Assembly (NCBI RefSeq): GCF_000688395.1
Contig: NZ_JIAG01000014.1
Coordinates: forward strand, 1-64,000
Direction of reading: 5' to 3'
Length of the DNA stretch: 64,000 nt
Origin: Haematomicrobium sanguinis DSM 21259
Lineage (GTDB): Bacteria; Actinomycetota; Actinomycetes; Actinomycetales; Micrococcaceae
Part shown: positions 2,545-39,522 of the stretch, one piece after another
How positions within the stretch are numbered: the first letter of the stretch is position 1
Layout of the letters: the number at the start of each line of letters is the position of its first letter
Translations under genes and position numbers: made by a program
The notes under the pieces: model-generated
Told to the model about the DNA's origin: nothing
Seen by the model: only the letters and a program-made list of their open reading frames with translations
Database searches by the model: none

Positions 2545-2584
2545 ATTGCCTTTTCATCCCGCAATTGCCGGATGAAAAGGCAAT
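2545..2584. repeat. Intergenic palindrome, 15-bp arms
   Basis: ATTGCCTTTTCATCC (2545-2559) is perfectly inverted at 2570-2584 with a 10-nt loop that itself contains GCAATTGC. A further partial copy of the arm (GGCGGATGAA) follows at 2586-2595. It lies between tgt and a co-directional DUF4916 gene. It lacks a T-run and does not look like an ordinary terminator. Confidence 0.75.
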
Positions 2585-23934: not shown

Positions 23935-25592
23935 ATGGCGATCTATCCTCAGCCCGAAGCCGCTACGCGAACAACATCAACCACCTAATCTCGCGCGGTT
24001 ATCTATCTTCGCGTCTCTACCTCACGCCAAGCGAACGAGAATGGCGAGGCAGAAGGCTACTCAATCCCGGCGCAGCGTGAAGCCTGTCGGCGCAAAGCCG
24101 AAGAACACGGTGCGACAGTTATTGAAGAGTTCGTGGATGCAGGTGCATCAGCGCGTTCGGCAGATCGTGACGGACTGCAGGCGATGTTCGGCTACCTCGG
24201 CCAGCAGGGCGCCGACTACGTCATCGTGCACAAGATTGACCGGCTTGCGCGTGACCGGATGGATGATGCGTTCATTCACCTCAAGATCAAGAGCGCGGGA
24301 GCTGCGCTCGTCTCTGTCATGGAGAACATCGACGACACGCCATCCGGCAAGTTCCAGCACGCCGTCATGGCAGGCATGGCAGAGTACTACTCGTCCAACC
24401 TGAGCCATGAGGCCAAGAAGGGTATTGGCTAGAAAGTGAAGAACGGCGGCGCCCACGGCGTCGCTTCGATCGTCTATGCCAACACGCTGAGTCGCATCGA
24501 AGGTCGCGAGATAAAGAGCGTTTCGCTCGACCCGGAGCGGGCACCGCACATCAAGCGGGCGCTCGAGACGTATGCGCGTGGTCAGGTCGGCATCTCTGAC
24601 CTGCGCGATCTGCTCGAGGAGCGTGGTCTCCGGAGCCGTAAGACGACGCGGTATGTCGGCAGCGCACTTAGCAACGCCCAGGCGCATCGGCTGCTGTCGA
24701 ATCCGTACTACACCGGGTGCATCAAACACCGGGATGTCTTCTACGACGGTGCGCATGAGCCGTTGATTAGCGACGAAACATGGAACGAAGTCCAGAGTGT
24801 GCTCGCAGGGAGGCGCATCGCCGGCGACCGGTCATGGAAGCATTCGCACTTCCTCAAGGGAACCGTGAAGTGCAACCGCTGCAAGCGCCGGATGGGGTTC
24901 GGCTACGCAAATGGTCGTGGTGGCACCTACGCATACTTTTTCTGCCTCAACCGGCACACCGGCCGGAGTGTCTGCGATCTGCCGTACATCCAGCAGCACG
25001 AAGTCGAAAATGCCGTTGACCATCTCTGGGCCTCGCAGCACTACAGCGAAGCCGAGCTTGCGCACATTGAAGAGACGATTGACGAGTTGGTTGCACTGGA
25101 ACTTAATGACAGCAGAGAGCTGGTTGCCGTGCAGCAGAGCCGACTCGTCACGCTGACGCGCAAGAAGCGGCGGCTCAGTGATGCTTATCTCGACGGCATC
25201 GTGCAACCCGAAGACTTGAAGCCACGACAGGAGCAGCTTCAGACGGAGATCGCTGACGCCGAACGACTCGTCAGGAATGCAGCAGTCCACGGCGACATCA
25301 CGAAAGAGCGCATCGGCATCTTGCTCAAGCTCGCGCGTAAAGCTCACAAGCTCCACCGATCAATCGGTGACAGGGCCAAGGGTGATCTCAACCGCGCCCA
25401 GTTCAGGGCGATATACATTGACTCGGAAAGTGACGAACCAGGTCAGGGCCACGAAGTAACCCTCGTGCCCGCGCACGCCGACGTCCTGGCCGCATTCGTG
25501 GCCGTGGCCCAGGAAGCCCGCCAGGCCCTGAACGCGCGGGACAAGGCCAGACGCAGGCGAACCAGCCAGCCAACCGCGGAGGACAACGGAAA

Positions 25593-25624
25593 AACCCCCG
25601 ACAAGCTTTCGCTTGCCGGGGGTT
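25593..25624 (-). terminator. Terminator of tRNA-Ser(CGA)
   Basis: An AACCCCCG.CAAGC stem with one internal mismatch closes on loop TTTC (25593-25624). On the minus strand it is followed by TTTTCC, directly downstream of the tRNA-Ser gene. It lies inside the apparent 3' part of the recombinase frame. Confidence 0.8.
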
Positions 25625-25639
25625 CCAATCTGTATCTAC

Positions 25640-25729
25640 TGGCGGTGACGGTGGGATTTGAACCCACGTTGGCTGTTACACCAAACAACATTTCGAGTGT
25701 TGCACCTTCGGCCGCTCGGACACGTCACC
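25640..25729 (-). tRNA. tRNA-Ser(CGA)
   Basis: The minus strand folds as a class II tRNA: acceptor GGTGACG (25723-25729) pairs with CGTCACC, the anticodon stem-loop is CAACA-CTCGAAA-TGTTG with anticodon CGA, there is a long variable arm, T-loop GGTTCAAATCC, discriminator G, and an encoded CCA (25640-25642). It borders the AbiH/recombinase insert. Confidence 0.95.
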
Positions 25730-25781
25730 AAACAACTCCACTACTTTACCGTAAACGCCCCGTGCCACCGAAACCAGGTGG

Positions 25782-26258
25782 CTAGCGATGATTCGCAAAG
25801 AAATCGCGGAGCAACTCAGCGCATTCGGCCTCGCGCACCCCGCCAAACACCTCGACCCAATGGTTGAGCCGCGTCTCGCGCAGCACCTCCAGCACCGATC
25901 CGGCCGCCCCCGCCTTCGCGTCCCACGCGCCAAACACCACCCGCGGAATCCGCGCGAGCGAAATCGCGCCCGCGCACATCGCGCACGGCTCCAGCGTGAC
26001 CACCAGCGTGCACCCGTCAAGCCGCCACCCCGGCACCTCCTTGGCGGCCCGCCGGATAGCCAGCATTTCCGCGTGTGCGGTGGGATCGCCGTCGTGCTCC
26101 CTTTCATTGCGCCCGGCGCCAATCACTACGCCTTCGGCGTTAAGAACGACGGCGCCAATCGGCACATCGCGCGTGTCCAGTGCCGCGCGGGCTTGGGAGA
26201 GCGCGAGGCCCATCCAGTCATAGAACTGCGCCTTCTGAAGTGCGATCCCTTTGTCCAC
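25782..26258 (-). CDS. tadA: tRNA adenosine deaminase
   Basis: TadA converts A34 to inosine, mainly in tRNA-Arg(ACG), which is also encoded in this window at 35.9 kb. Zinc and catalytic residues are in [11 protein letters not shown] (His62, Glu64) and [11 protein letters not shown] (Cys92, Cys95). The 158-residue length is standard. A start a few codons downstream (ATG 26213) is possible. Divergent from upp. Confidence 0.92.
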
Positions 26259-26917: not shown

Positions 26918-27457
26918 GGCGCTTTGGATTACTGGAGAGTAGGTTTTGCCGGTCGCGCGACCGTCTCATTATGTGGACAAATATTTTCTGGCGTGACGAA
27001 GCTTAAGTTCAGATTCGATTCACACTTGGAAACAATCGAATTATCTTCGGTGTAACCAGGTAATGAGGGCTAATCTTCGAGGCGGATGGCGTTACTGGCT
27101 GGGTTCTGGCTCAAAAATTCGATTGTGAAGCGGATCACAAAATCAAGCGATTTCTCAGCATACGGACATTTTTCCCCGAGAATGATTGCCGCTGGACCTG
27201 CGTCGGGTGCAATAATTCTTTATGTGAACATCGAACCCACATCCATGACGTCGCGAGCCCCGCAGGCCATCAAGCCTGCGGACGTTGCCCGTGAGTCGAT
27301 GTGCTGTCGTTGTCGAATGCATAGCTAAAGCACTACCCCAGCTCTAGTTCTCTATTCATCATTCGAGCCCAACGGCGGGTTCGCCCGTCTCGTCTCGGAC
27401 ACCACCCCTGCATTCGAGCCGATGATTTCGGTTTCTCAACGTTTACGAGGTTTCACC
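26918..27457. other. 540-bp regulatory gap
   Basis: This AT-richer stretch separates upp from the orphan winged-helix gene. It contains an 8-bp perfect stem CCGCAGGC/GCCTGCGG at about 27260-27281 and a 9-codon frame rich in cysteine (27299-27328). An 80-codon frame (27086-27328) has no good ribosome site and is probably spurious. It most likely holds a long 5' leader and promoter of the downstream regulator gene. Confidence 0.45.
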
Positions 27458-28285
27458 ATGAGCACTTCTTCCGGCTACGTCCACATCTCTGTACGCAACG
27501 CTCAAAACCGCTCCCGCGCTGTACGTCAAGCGGGACCGTCCCACTACGGTTACGGCAACCCTGGTGTCGCACCGGGTTCTCCCTACGCCTATTCGCCGCA
27601 ACAACGTTTTGCGCCCGTTCCGGTGGCGGCGACTGCGCCGCGATTGGGCCCAGCGAATAGTTCCTCTGCGGACGTGGCTCGCCCCGACGCCGATGCCATC
27701 GCGCGTGGCTTTGTTCTATACGTCGGCATTGACGAGGACACCGCCGCCGACGCCGGAACCTCGCTCGCCAAGCTCGCTCAAGAGGTGCGGAAATTTGTGC
27801 AGACTCTCGTGCCCGAGGCCGAAAGTCACGCGGCGGTAGCGATCGCACCCTCCACGGCGATCGGCTCCGACCTCGAAGTGGTGCGCCGCGCGCTGGGGGA
27901 TCCCACCGCCGCCCGGGCGCAACGCATTGATTCCGCGATCAACCAGGAGAGCGCGCCACGACCCAATGGCGTGTTGATTGATTTGCCGCGCCGCGAGGTC
28001 CACCTGGACGGGGAGAGCCTCAACCTGACCTACAAGGAGTTCGAACTTTTGAGCTTCTTGGTCGACAACGGGACCCGCACGGTCACTCGTGACGAACTGT
28101 TGGATTCGCTGTGGAGTGGATCGGGCGAAGTGCCGAATGAGCGCACCATTGACGTGCATATTCGCCGACTGCGCTCCAAGCTTGGCCGGCTCGCCAACAC
28201 AGTGCGCACCGTGCGCGGCCAGGGTTACCGCTTCTACGAGCACCCCGAAGTTGTCATCTGGTCCGCGCCAGAGTACTCGATTTAG
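27458..28285 (+). CDS. Orphan OmpR-type winged-helix transcriptional regulator
   Basis: The start is ATG 27458 with an upstream ACGAGG. The 275-residue protein has a low-complexity N-terminus, a middle domain (FVLYVGIDEDTAADAGTSLA) that is not a CheY receiver, and a C-terminal winged helix (GVLIDLPRREVHLDGESLNL, YKEFELLSFLVDNGTRTVTR, RTIDVHIRRLRSKLG, VRTVRGQGYRF). No phosphoacceptor aspartate context is visible and no histidine kinase lies nearby. This architecture is common in actinobacteria; target genes are unknown. Confidence 0.85.
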   Translation: MSTSSGYVHISVRNAQNRSRAVRQAGPSHYGYGNPGVAPGSPYAYSPQQRFAPVPVAATAPRLGPANSSSADVARPDADAIARGFVLYVGIDEDTAADAGTSLAKLAQEVRKFVQTLVPEAESHAAVAIAPSTAIGSDLEVVRRALGDPTAARAQRIDSAINQESAPRPNGVLIDLPRREVHLDGESLNLTYKEFELLSFLVDNGTRTVTRDELLDSLWSGSGEVPNERTIDVHIRRLRSKLGRLANTVRTVRGQGYRFYEHPEVVIWSAPEYSI

Positions 28286-28334
28286 TTTTCCCCACGGTTA
28301 GAGCGGGAGCGGCGAGCGCTGCTTCCATCACTTG

Positions 28335-28394
28335 GCAGGCCCAATTTAACGGTGCAGGCCCATATATGGGCCTGCACCGTTAAATTGGGCCTGC
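28335..28394. repeat. Perfect 60-bp palindrome
   Basis: Every base from 28335 to 28364 pairs with 28365 to 28394 about the centre CATATATG, with no loop. A further partial arm TAAATTGGGCC (28395-28405) directly repeats 28381-28391. It lies between two plus-strand genes. It lacks a terminator T-run and is longer than any ordinary operator. Confidence 0.9.
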
Positions 28395-28512
28395 TAAATT
28401 GGGCCCGCATTCTTGGGGCGCGCCACGGCGCAGGCGCCCGTTGCGCTGCAATTACTTAGCGCCCCAGTAGCGTCCCAGCATTGCCCGCGCCGCCATTGAC
28501 TAGACTGAACGC

Positions 28513-29031
28513 ATGAAGGGCAACGTCAAGACTCTGATGCTCATGCGGCACGCCAAGGCGGCATGGCCCCCGGATGTTGACGACTTTGACCGCCCGCTTG
28601 CCGAGCGCGGCCACGAGCAAGCGCCCGAGGTGGGCCGCTGGATGCTGGAAAACAATACGGTTCCGGACTACATCCTGACCTCGAGTGCCCTGCGCACCCG
28701 GCAAACCACCACGTGGGTTTCCCAGGAACTGGGGGAGCTTGCGCCGACGGCCAAATTGGAGGACGGTCTTTACGGCGCCACCGGGACGGAAATTATCGTC
28801 CACATCAATCACGTTCCCGAGACTGTGCGATCGCTACTGGTTGTCACCCACATGCCCGGTGTCCAGGACGCAGCGATGCGCCTCGCCAGCGCACAATCCG
28901 ATGAGGACTCCGTGCTGGATCTCGCAGGACACTATCCGACCGCCGCTCTGACGGTCATGAACGTCACGAAACCCTGGGCGGAACTTGACGGCAGGGACGC
29001 TGACGTCACGAATTTCTTTGTCCCGCGCTAA
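28513..29031 (+). CDS. SixA-like phosphohistidine phosphatase
   Basis: Histidine-phosphatase-superfamily members of this size remove phosphate from phosphohistidine or small substrates. The 172-residue protein has LMLMRHAKAAW with the catalytic His13, SSALRTRQTT, and the second histidine in LLVVTHMPGVQD. It overlaps the convergent TetR gene by 4 bp. Confidence 0.85.
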   Translation: MKGNVKTLMLMRHAKAAWPPDVDDFDRPLAERGHEQAPEVGRWMLENNTVPDYILTSSALRTRQTTTWVSQELGELAPTAKLEDGLYGATGTEIIVHINHVPETVRSLLVVTHMPGVQDAAMRLASAQSDEDSVLDLAGHYPTAALTVMNVTKPWAELDGRDADVTNFFVPR

Positions 29032-39449: not shown

Positions 39450-39522
39450 CTCCTCGACTGTGTAGCAGTTAATGCCCATCCGACCGGCGAGAATGGGCAT
39501 TAACTGCTACACAGTCGAGGAG
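39450..39522. repeat. 30-bp perfect inverted repeat between divergent genes
   Basis: Arms 39450-39479 and 39493-39522 pair perfectly over 30 bp around a 13-nt loop. The right arm ends 13 bp before the M81 peptidase start. Both flanking genes diverge, so a transcription terminator makes little sense here; the element must overlap or adjoin promoters or leaders. Confidence 0.9.

Follow-up and report, generated by a model that had tools for sequence, protein, structure and literature searches.

The window, that is, the whole stretch of 64,000 nucleotides of Haematomicrobium sanguinis DSM 21259 that was analysed, carries a long palindrome in the gap between two plus-strand genes (Table 1). The upstream gene encodes a winged-helix protein and the downstream gene a member of the histidine phosphatase family. 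The start of the winged-helix gene was our choice within an open reading frame spanning 27422-28285; its stop codon, at 28285, precedes the palindrome by 49 nt. Three open reading frames overlap the palindrome itself, all of them short (23-42 codons), and these are not regarded as genes.

Table 1. Features at the palindrome locus, in window coordinates
Feature	Position	Strand	Support
Winged-helix (Trans_reg_C) protein gene, upstream	27458..28285	+	PF00486, 2.4e-22
Perfect 60-bp palindrome, core of the element	28335..28394	.	30/30 pairs, loop 0
Word 1, GCAGGCCCA, outer, left arm	28335..28343	+	
Word 2, GCAGGCCCA, inner, left arm, 19 nt past word 1	28354..28362	+	
Word 2', inner, right arm	28367..28375	-	
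Word 1', outer, right arm, 19 nt from word 2'	28386..28394	-	
Extra 14-nt unit, TAAATTGGGCCCGC, also in the C13 copy	28395..28408	-	direct repeat, alignment
Histidine phosphatase family protein gene, downstream	28513..29031	+	PF00300, 3.8e-8

The original prediction described a perfect 60-bp palindrome without a loop, followed by a third partial arm, and both parts of this description are borne out. All 30 pairs match around the centre CATATATG, each arm contains GCAGGCCCA twice at a distance of 19 nt, and the third arm is the segment 28395-28408, which matches 28381-28394 as a direct copy at 13 of 14 nt. From base composition alone, the chance expectation for such palindromes is ∼3e-13 per 64 kb. 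In a scan of the window that allowed loops of 0-12 nt, five inverted repeats scored at least 15, and the one at 28335-28394 was the strongest. The predicted RNA fold of 28320-28440 has an energy of -84 kcal/mol (z = -9.1 against shuffled sequences), and the DNA fold of the palindrome one of -39.8 kcal/mol (z = -11.1). The Rfam search returned microRNA hairpin models alone, far under their gathering scores, which are taken as chance matches to a long perfect stem.

A family of four copies and its symmetry

A whole-genome BLAST search, which answers the proposal to look for copies elsewhere, found three more copies on contigs C13, C9 and C8, with 83-88% identity, making a family of four. The three diverged copies are all imperfect palindromes, so that the window copy is the only perfect one. 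The extra 14-nt unit is common to the window and C13 copies (two of the four), and these two are for that reason taken to be related by descent and not to have formed independently. All four copies sit at or just past a stop codon: (i) the window copy follows the winged-helix gene, (ii) on C13 the copy runs into the final codons of a minus-strand gene converging with a GH20 hexosaminidase gene, (iii) the C9 copy lies 6 nt past an M1 aminopeptidase gene, which converges with a lipoate ligase gene, and (iv) the C8 copy (L034:9831-9890) overlaps the nusA stop codon at the very edge of the repeat, ahead of ylxR and infB. Within a few nucleotides of infB there follows another palindrome of the four-word architecture described below (L034:13387-13458).

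Fold-back during assembly or amplification can create perfect zero-loop palindromes, and an assembly artefact was the case named at the outset as fatal to the observation. That three other loci hold diverged homologues, one of them with the extra 14-nt unit, disfavours this reading, and unrelated sequence flanks the palindrome on both sides inside an 86.7-kb contig. An artefact is therefore highly improbable.

The family appears confined to its own genome in the collections searched. BLAST with 79 bases of the element in 59 genomes gave a match in the own genome alone and none in the 58 others, and a distant blastn search of plasmids and phages with 28300-28460 gave no match. The core pattern was met in five stretches of the contig collection, none of which resembles the window's family beyond the core, and a single 3-mismatch core match, without the arms, was found among 295 genomes of the bacterial family (in G306). 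Among the five is the Acidimicrobiia metagenome-assembled genome CSMAG_650, two contigs of which (L042 and L045) have a long palindrome of their own, with 28 perfect pairs in L042, the same 22-base core and unrelated arms.

The winged-helix gene was matched in all 44 genomes searched and is near full-length in most of the 27 other genomes of the same family, but the window palindrome is absent after it in all 27 of these genomes with the locus. The region 3' of the gene is variable there: over the 200 nt that follow, the top hairpin score ranges between 5 and 22 and is at most 7 in 15 of the 27.

The perfect symmetry of the window copy is probably recent, produced either by quasipalindrome template switching, in which one arm would have been copied from the other during replication, or by a recent duplication. 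At pair 11 the window copy has T-A where all three other copies have T.T, and the window copy differs from the others by mirrored, two-sided changes at pair 17 (against three of three) and pair 18 (against two of three). The remaining differences in the other copies are mostly one-sided breaks, as in decaying copies. The pattern at pairs 11, 17 and 18 is what arm-templated correction of a quasipalindrome would leave. Template switching at quasipalindromes is an established type of mutation in E. coli (PMC7202029) and has a role in the upkeep of hairpins (PMC8794818).

Palindromes at gene ends, termination and SbcCD

To place the window palindrome among its neighbours, 544 kb of the own genome (G000) were sampled: the window, 80 kb around the copies and one further place, and 400 kb of contigs C1 and C2. 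This sample contains 35 inverted repeats that score at least 15, several of which repeat one another, and no inverted repeat of that score occurred in the five stretches of the shuffle control. With genes called by a simple codon-usage script and not by a standard caller, none of the 35 lies inside a gene, 18 lie in gaps between tandem genes, 16 between convergent genes and one between divergent genes, whereas divergent gaps account for 30.5% of the intergenic length (p = 5e-5) and 25% of the gaps (p = 6e-4). The one palindrome called between divergent genes is a second long hairpin in the window, at 39450-39522, with arms of 32, a loop of 9 and GTAG near the base of its stem. Its sequence is common to L033:4502 and L056:19499; the members of this hairpin family end in CTRTGTAGC...GCTACAYAG, and their interiors differ between copies, mostly symmetrically in both arms. 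A perfect loopless palindrome longer than that at 28335-28394, with 34 pairs, lies on contig C1 (L050:6253-6320) and belongs to the CTATGTAGCGCGA family.

The clustering of own-genome palindromes at gene 3' ends would suit a strong transcription terminator, or a stabiliser of the mRNA 3' end, of the upstream gene, with the repeats arising from the reuse of good hairpins. The position of the window copy 49 nt past a stop codon and its RNA fold of -84 kcal/mol are in keeping with such a role, and some relatives have a terminator-like hairpin past the winged-helix gene. As in intrinsic terminators, a hairpin stands just past a stop codon; unlike them, the element has no T run, its stem is far longer than usual and its sequence recurs at unrelated genes. 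Only 3 of the 12 nt after the palindrome are T (0-5 of 12 in eight elements), and a terminator scan gave three sites, the palindrome not among them, so the element does not look like a canonical intrinsic terminator. The genes nusA, ylxR and infB usually form a single operon, and full termination at the C8 copy, between nusA and ylxR-infB, would therefore be costly. Nor is a hairpin past the winged-helix gene conserved, given the low scores in more than half of the family relatives. Termination or stabilisation as the source of these repeats is accordingly considered unlikely.

A different question is how a palindrome of this length persists, since long perfect palindromes had been argued at first to be usually unstable in bacteria. 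The comparison set comprised 1.14 Mb from relatives that bear SbcD, with 75 palindromes scoring at least 15, 34 at least 18, 8 at least 25 and 2 at least 30. The 400 kb of C1 and C2, sampled irrespective of palindromes, hold 22, 13, 7 and 4, respectively. For the longest palindromes (at least 28, and likewise at least 30) this is 4 per 400 kb against 2 per 1,140 kb, with p = 0.043, uncorrected for seven cut-offs. There is no difference at cut-offs of 15-22 (p 0.33-0.74), p is 0.08 at 25, and perfect runs of at least 20, 25 and 28 give p values of 0.28, 0.11 and 0.11. Palindromes are thus ordinary in this genome and in its relatives, and the longest are nominally commoner here. The instability argument is weak in that palindromes are not rare in SbcD-carrying relatives; it keeps some content in that those as long as the window's are rarer there.

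Loss of the SbcCD hairpin nuclease, which would let long palindromes persist in this genome, has the gene content in its favour. SbcD had no match in the own genome, as against matches in 289 of 295 family genomes (275 above the model cut-off), and the search for SbcC returned a short ATPase-like match and no real SbcC. The lower limit for SbcCD in vitro is given as a palindrome of ∼20-36 bp (PMC4245961), so that a 60-bp palindrome could be a substrate. The nominal excess of palindromes scoring at least 28 points the same way, but it is not accompanied by a difference at the lower cut-offs or for perfect runs. A match to SbcD is also missing in the three genomes of genus g19 examined, in G098 and in G168. 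The SbcD-lacking genomes used for comparison (G068, G168 and a little of G018, with G098 left out) show no excess, at 2 per 610 kb for scores of at least 28 (p = 0.61), and within one genus the counts at 25 and above run the opposite way: G168, without SbcD, has 1 per 200 kb and G263, with SbcD, has 4 per 200 kb. On account of these comparisons SbcCD loss, judged quite improbable as the cause, is not used as an explanation.

Four words at a step of 19 nt

The arrangement of words within the arms is shared more widely than the sequence of the family. Across all samples there are 66 palindromes with arms of at least 22 nt; direct repeats of at least 8 nt within an arm occur in seven of them, all spaced exactly 19 nt, with five unrelated words in three genera, where ∼0.1 would be expected from shuffled arms. 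The architecture was scanned for in 2.29 Mb as a word, a step d, the same word, a centre, the inverted word, d, and the inverted word again, with d from 10 to 40; the spacing of 19 had been noticed first on the same data, so these scans are not independent of the 66-palindrome test. With 9-mers and at most one mismatch, the scan gave seven elements at 19 nt, two at 20 and none elsewhere, and none in 60 shuffled stretches. With 10-mers and at most two mismatches, it gave 13 at 19 nt, 4 at 20 and 25 across the other spacings, and the shuffled stretches yielded three matches, none of them at 19 or 20.

All 17 elements at 19 or 20 nt are intergenic, whereas only 7 of the 25 at other spacings are, the remaining 18 lying in coding sequence. 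Twelve of the 17 have a called 3' end no more than 50 nt away; for the other five the distance is greater, and three of these lie 23-51 nt from a gene start. One hit in the own genome, on L048 with a spacing of 20, is far from any stop codon and may be unrelated. By genome, the elements number eight in the own genome, five in G068, three in G135 and one in G263; none was found in G001, G030, G168 or a 17-genus sample, nor in 50 kb of E. coli K-12, a very small control. The class is patchy across genomes. The window copy was picked up by these scans and belongs to it, as each of its arms repeats a word at the 19-20 nt spacing. No description of four-word palindromes with a 19-nt step was recognised in the literature searched, with most subscription journals outside it. 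Thousands of REP candidates are reported at loose settings for an Arthrobacter in PMC12306157, in the accessible part of which no mention of 19 nt or of direct repeats was found. Another small palindrome family, with CAATTGC and TTTTCAT words recognised by eye, comprises window 2545-2584 and L052:16991-17050.

Two further pattern tests, in genus g26 and in the own genome, are more independent, yet their patterns were derived from elements already seen. In genus g26, with the gap left free at 3-13 nt, all six matches have a step of 19, in three of seven genomes; the source element of the pattern is among the six, and a single element contributes two, one from each arm. The pattern TTTNNNNGCC-N9-TTTNNNNGCC, allowing up to one mismatch, gave 26 + 27 matches in the own genome, compared with 9 + 12 for the reversed control. 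The pattern does not require a partner, and 34 of the 53 matches form 17 inverted arm pairs, at least four of which were known beforehand; the offset is exactly 35 nt in 16 of these pairs and 37 in the remaining one, which is the window family's copy on C8. The other 19 have no partner, and many of these have the look of chance hits. Neither the window copy nor C13 fits the pattern, and C9 fits it in a single arm. The window's family shares its geometry with the larger set of palindromes, a link that rests on the 2.29-Mb four-word scan, while kinship by word is weak.

Comparison of the two arms within each of the 17 pairs gives 7 differences over 136 free word positions, as against 41 over 153 spacer positions (p = 4e-7, for positions that are not fully independent). 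The mean difference per site between the arms of the window's family is 0.13 in the words and 0.31 in the spacers. At their spacing, the words are hence better conserved than the spacer pairing, and it is this difference that suggests recognition of the four words by a protein, although the conservation of the words could partly reflect recent common descent of the copies.

Likeness to known repeats and a proposed origin

The best reading of the palindrome at 28335-28394, with a probability of about 0.6, is that it is one copy of a short palindromic repeat that is dispersed at gene 3' ends and very probably codes for no protein. The repeat would have spread within the genome and would carry in its four words putative recognition sites for a protein. 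The dispersed repeat is real and its position ordinary; the one unusual shared feature is the four-word geometry with its 19-nt step. From the sequences we infer protein recognition and spread in the manner of a mobile element. The protein would be transposase-like or otherwise DNA-binding, and copies spreading inside the genome would be tolerated just past genes. Once there, they would become hairpins in 3' untranslated regions and may tune mRNA ends without being canonical terminators. Against the reading as a dispersed repeat it counts that no Y1-type transposase and no autonomous parent were identified, that no target-site duplication was recognised by eye, and that the copies are only four, three of them visibly decayed. 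The early suggestion of a mobile-element end or a recent origin is supported in part, in that the palindrome belongs to a dispersed family of four, is alone among them in being perfect, and is built like a wider group of repeated palindromes.

One close comparison is with REP elements. REPs of the GTAG and CGTC super-families are short palindromic repeats found downstream of coding regions, between tandem or convergent genes, with several families per genome (PMC3733652). The window element is likewise palindromic, intergenic and repeated, with four copies, one of which (C13) overlaps last codons, in a genome where none of the 35 sampled palindromes lies inside a called gene. REPs are, however, 20-40 bp long and of high copy number, whereas the window element is at least 60 bp long, occurs four times and repeats its word directly within each arm, and no GTAG or CGTC tag was seen by eye in or adjoining 28335-28408. 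In REPINs, conserved ends in an inverted pair form one hairpin of ∼80 nt, and the arms show compensatory changes (PMC3116915). The window element resembles them in having conserved inverted units in one hairpin with compensatory arm changes, and differs in that its conserved words lie inside each arm at a spacing of 19 nt. RAYT, the Y1 transposase (PF01797), had no match in the own genome, while 5 of 14 control genomes, E. coli included, gave one; the RAYT hypothesis and REPIN membership were rejected on this ground.

Pairs of DNA uptake sequences were also considered and rejected: in the 544 kb, each of the five words tried has 0-8 copies outside palindromes, at most ∼2.5 times the expectation. 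GCAGGCCCA was seen 18 times, 10 of them in elements, with 5.9 expected, and TTTCAGCGCC occurs five times outside palindromes, with 2.0 expected.

Miniature inverted-repeat transposable elements (MITEs) share with the window element a short length, dispersal and terminal inverted repeats, but here the palindrome fills nearly the whole element and no parent element was identified. A non-autonomous element of this type, whose arms would be two-part terminal repeats to which the parent's transposase binds, accords with the dispersed copies and with the fixed spacing inside each arm. Contig C5 carries a pair of solo arms of a related word, inverted to each other at a distance of 3.76 kb (34995 on the plus strand and 38729 on the minus strand) and placed as the ends of a larger element might be, but two neighbouring decayed elements could mimic such a pair. 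By eye, no target-site duplication was recognised in the flanks of the four copies, the ends of which are not exactly known, and the search for transposase domains, which covered the Y1 (RAYT/IS200-like) type, found none in the genome. A MITE-like origin of this kind is considered fairly unlikely. Overall, the window element most resembles, in how it works, a miniature repeat dispersed among the 3' ends of genes.

A broader version of the dispersed-repeat reading can be put forward tentatively. The palindrome may represent a class of short elements of this bacterial family, mobile or regulatory and so far undescribed, in which a word occurs four times, as two inverted pairs that keep strictly to a step of 19 bp; a cognate protein would recognise the words and would have co-evolved with genus-specific words while the geometry was kept, and the 3.76-kb stretch on C5 could be an autonomous member that carries the protein. 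No larger elements flanked by the words were recognised in the stretches of other genera that were examined. Taken alone, the window palindrome is one among the many that lie where genes end. What offers a concrete, testable signature is the 19-nt geometry, which recurs with unrelated words across several genera; from it one would expect a protein whose footprint covers two sites. If this is true, families of repeats that are usually read as RNA hairpins or as RAYT-driven REPs can originate in another way. Elsewhere in the window, at 24133-25785, two adjacent plus-strand frames resemble, by eye, two parts of a large serine recombinase.
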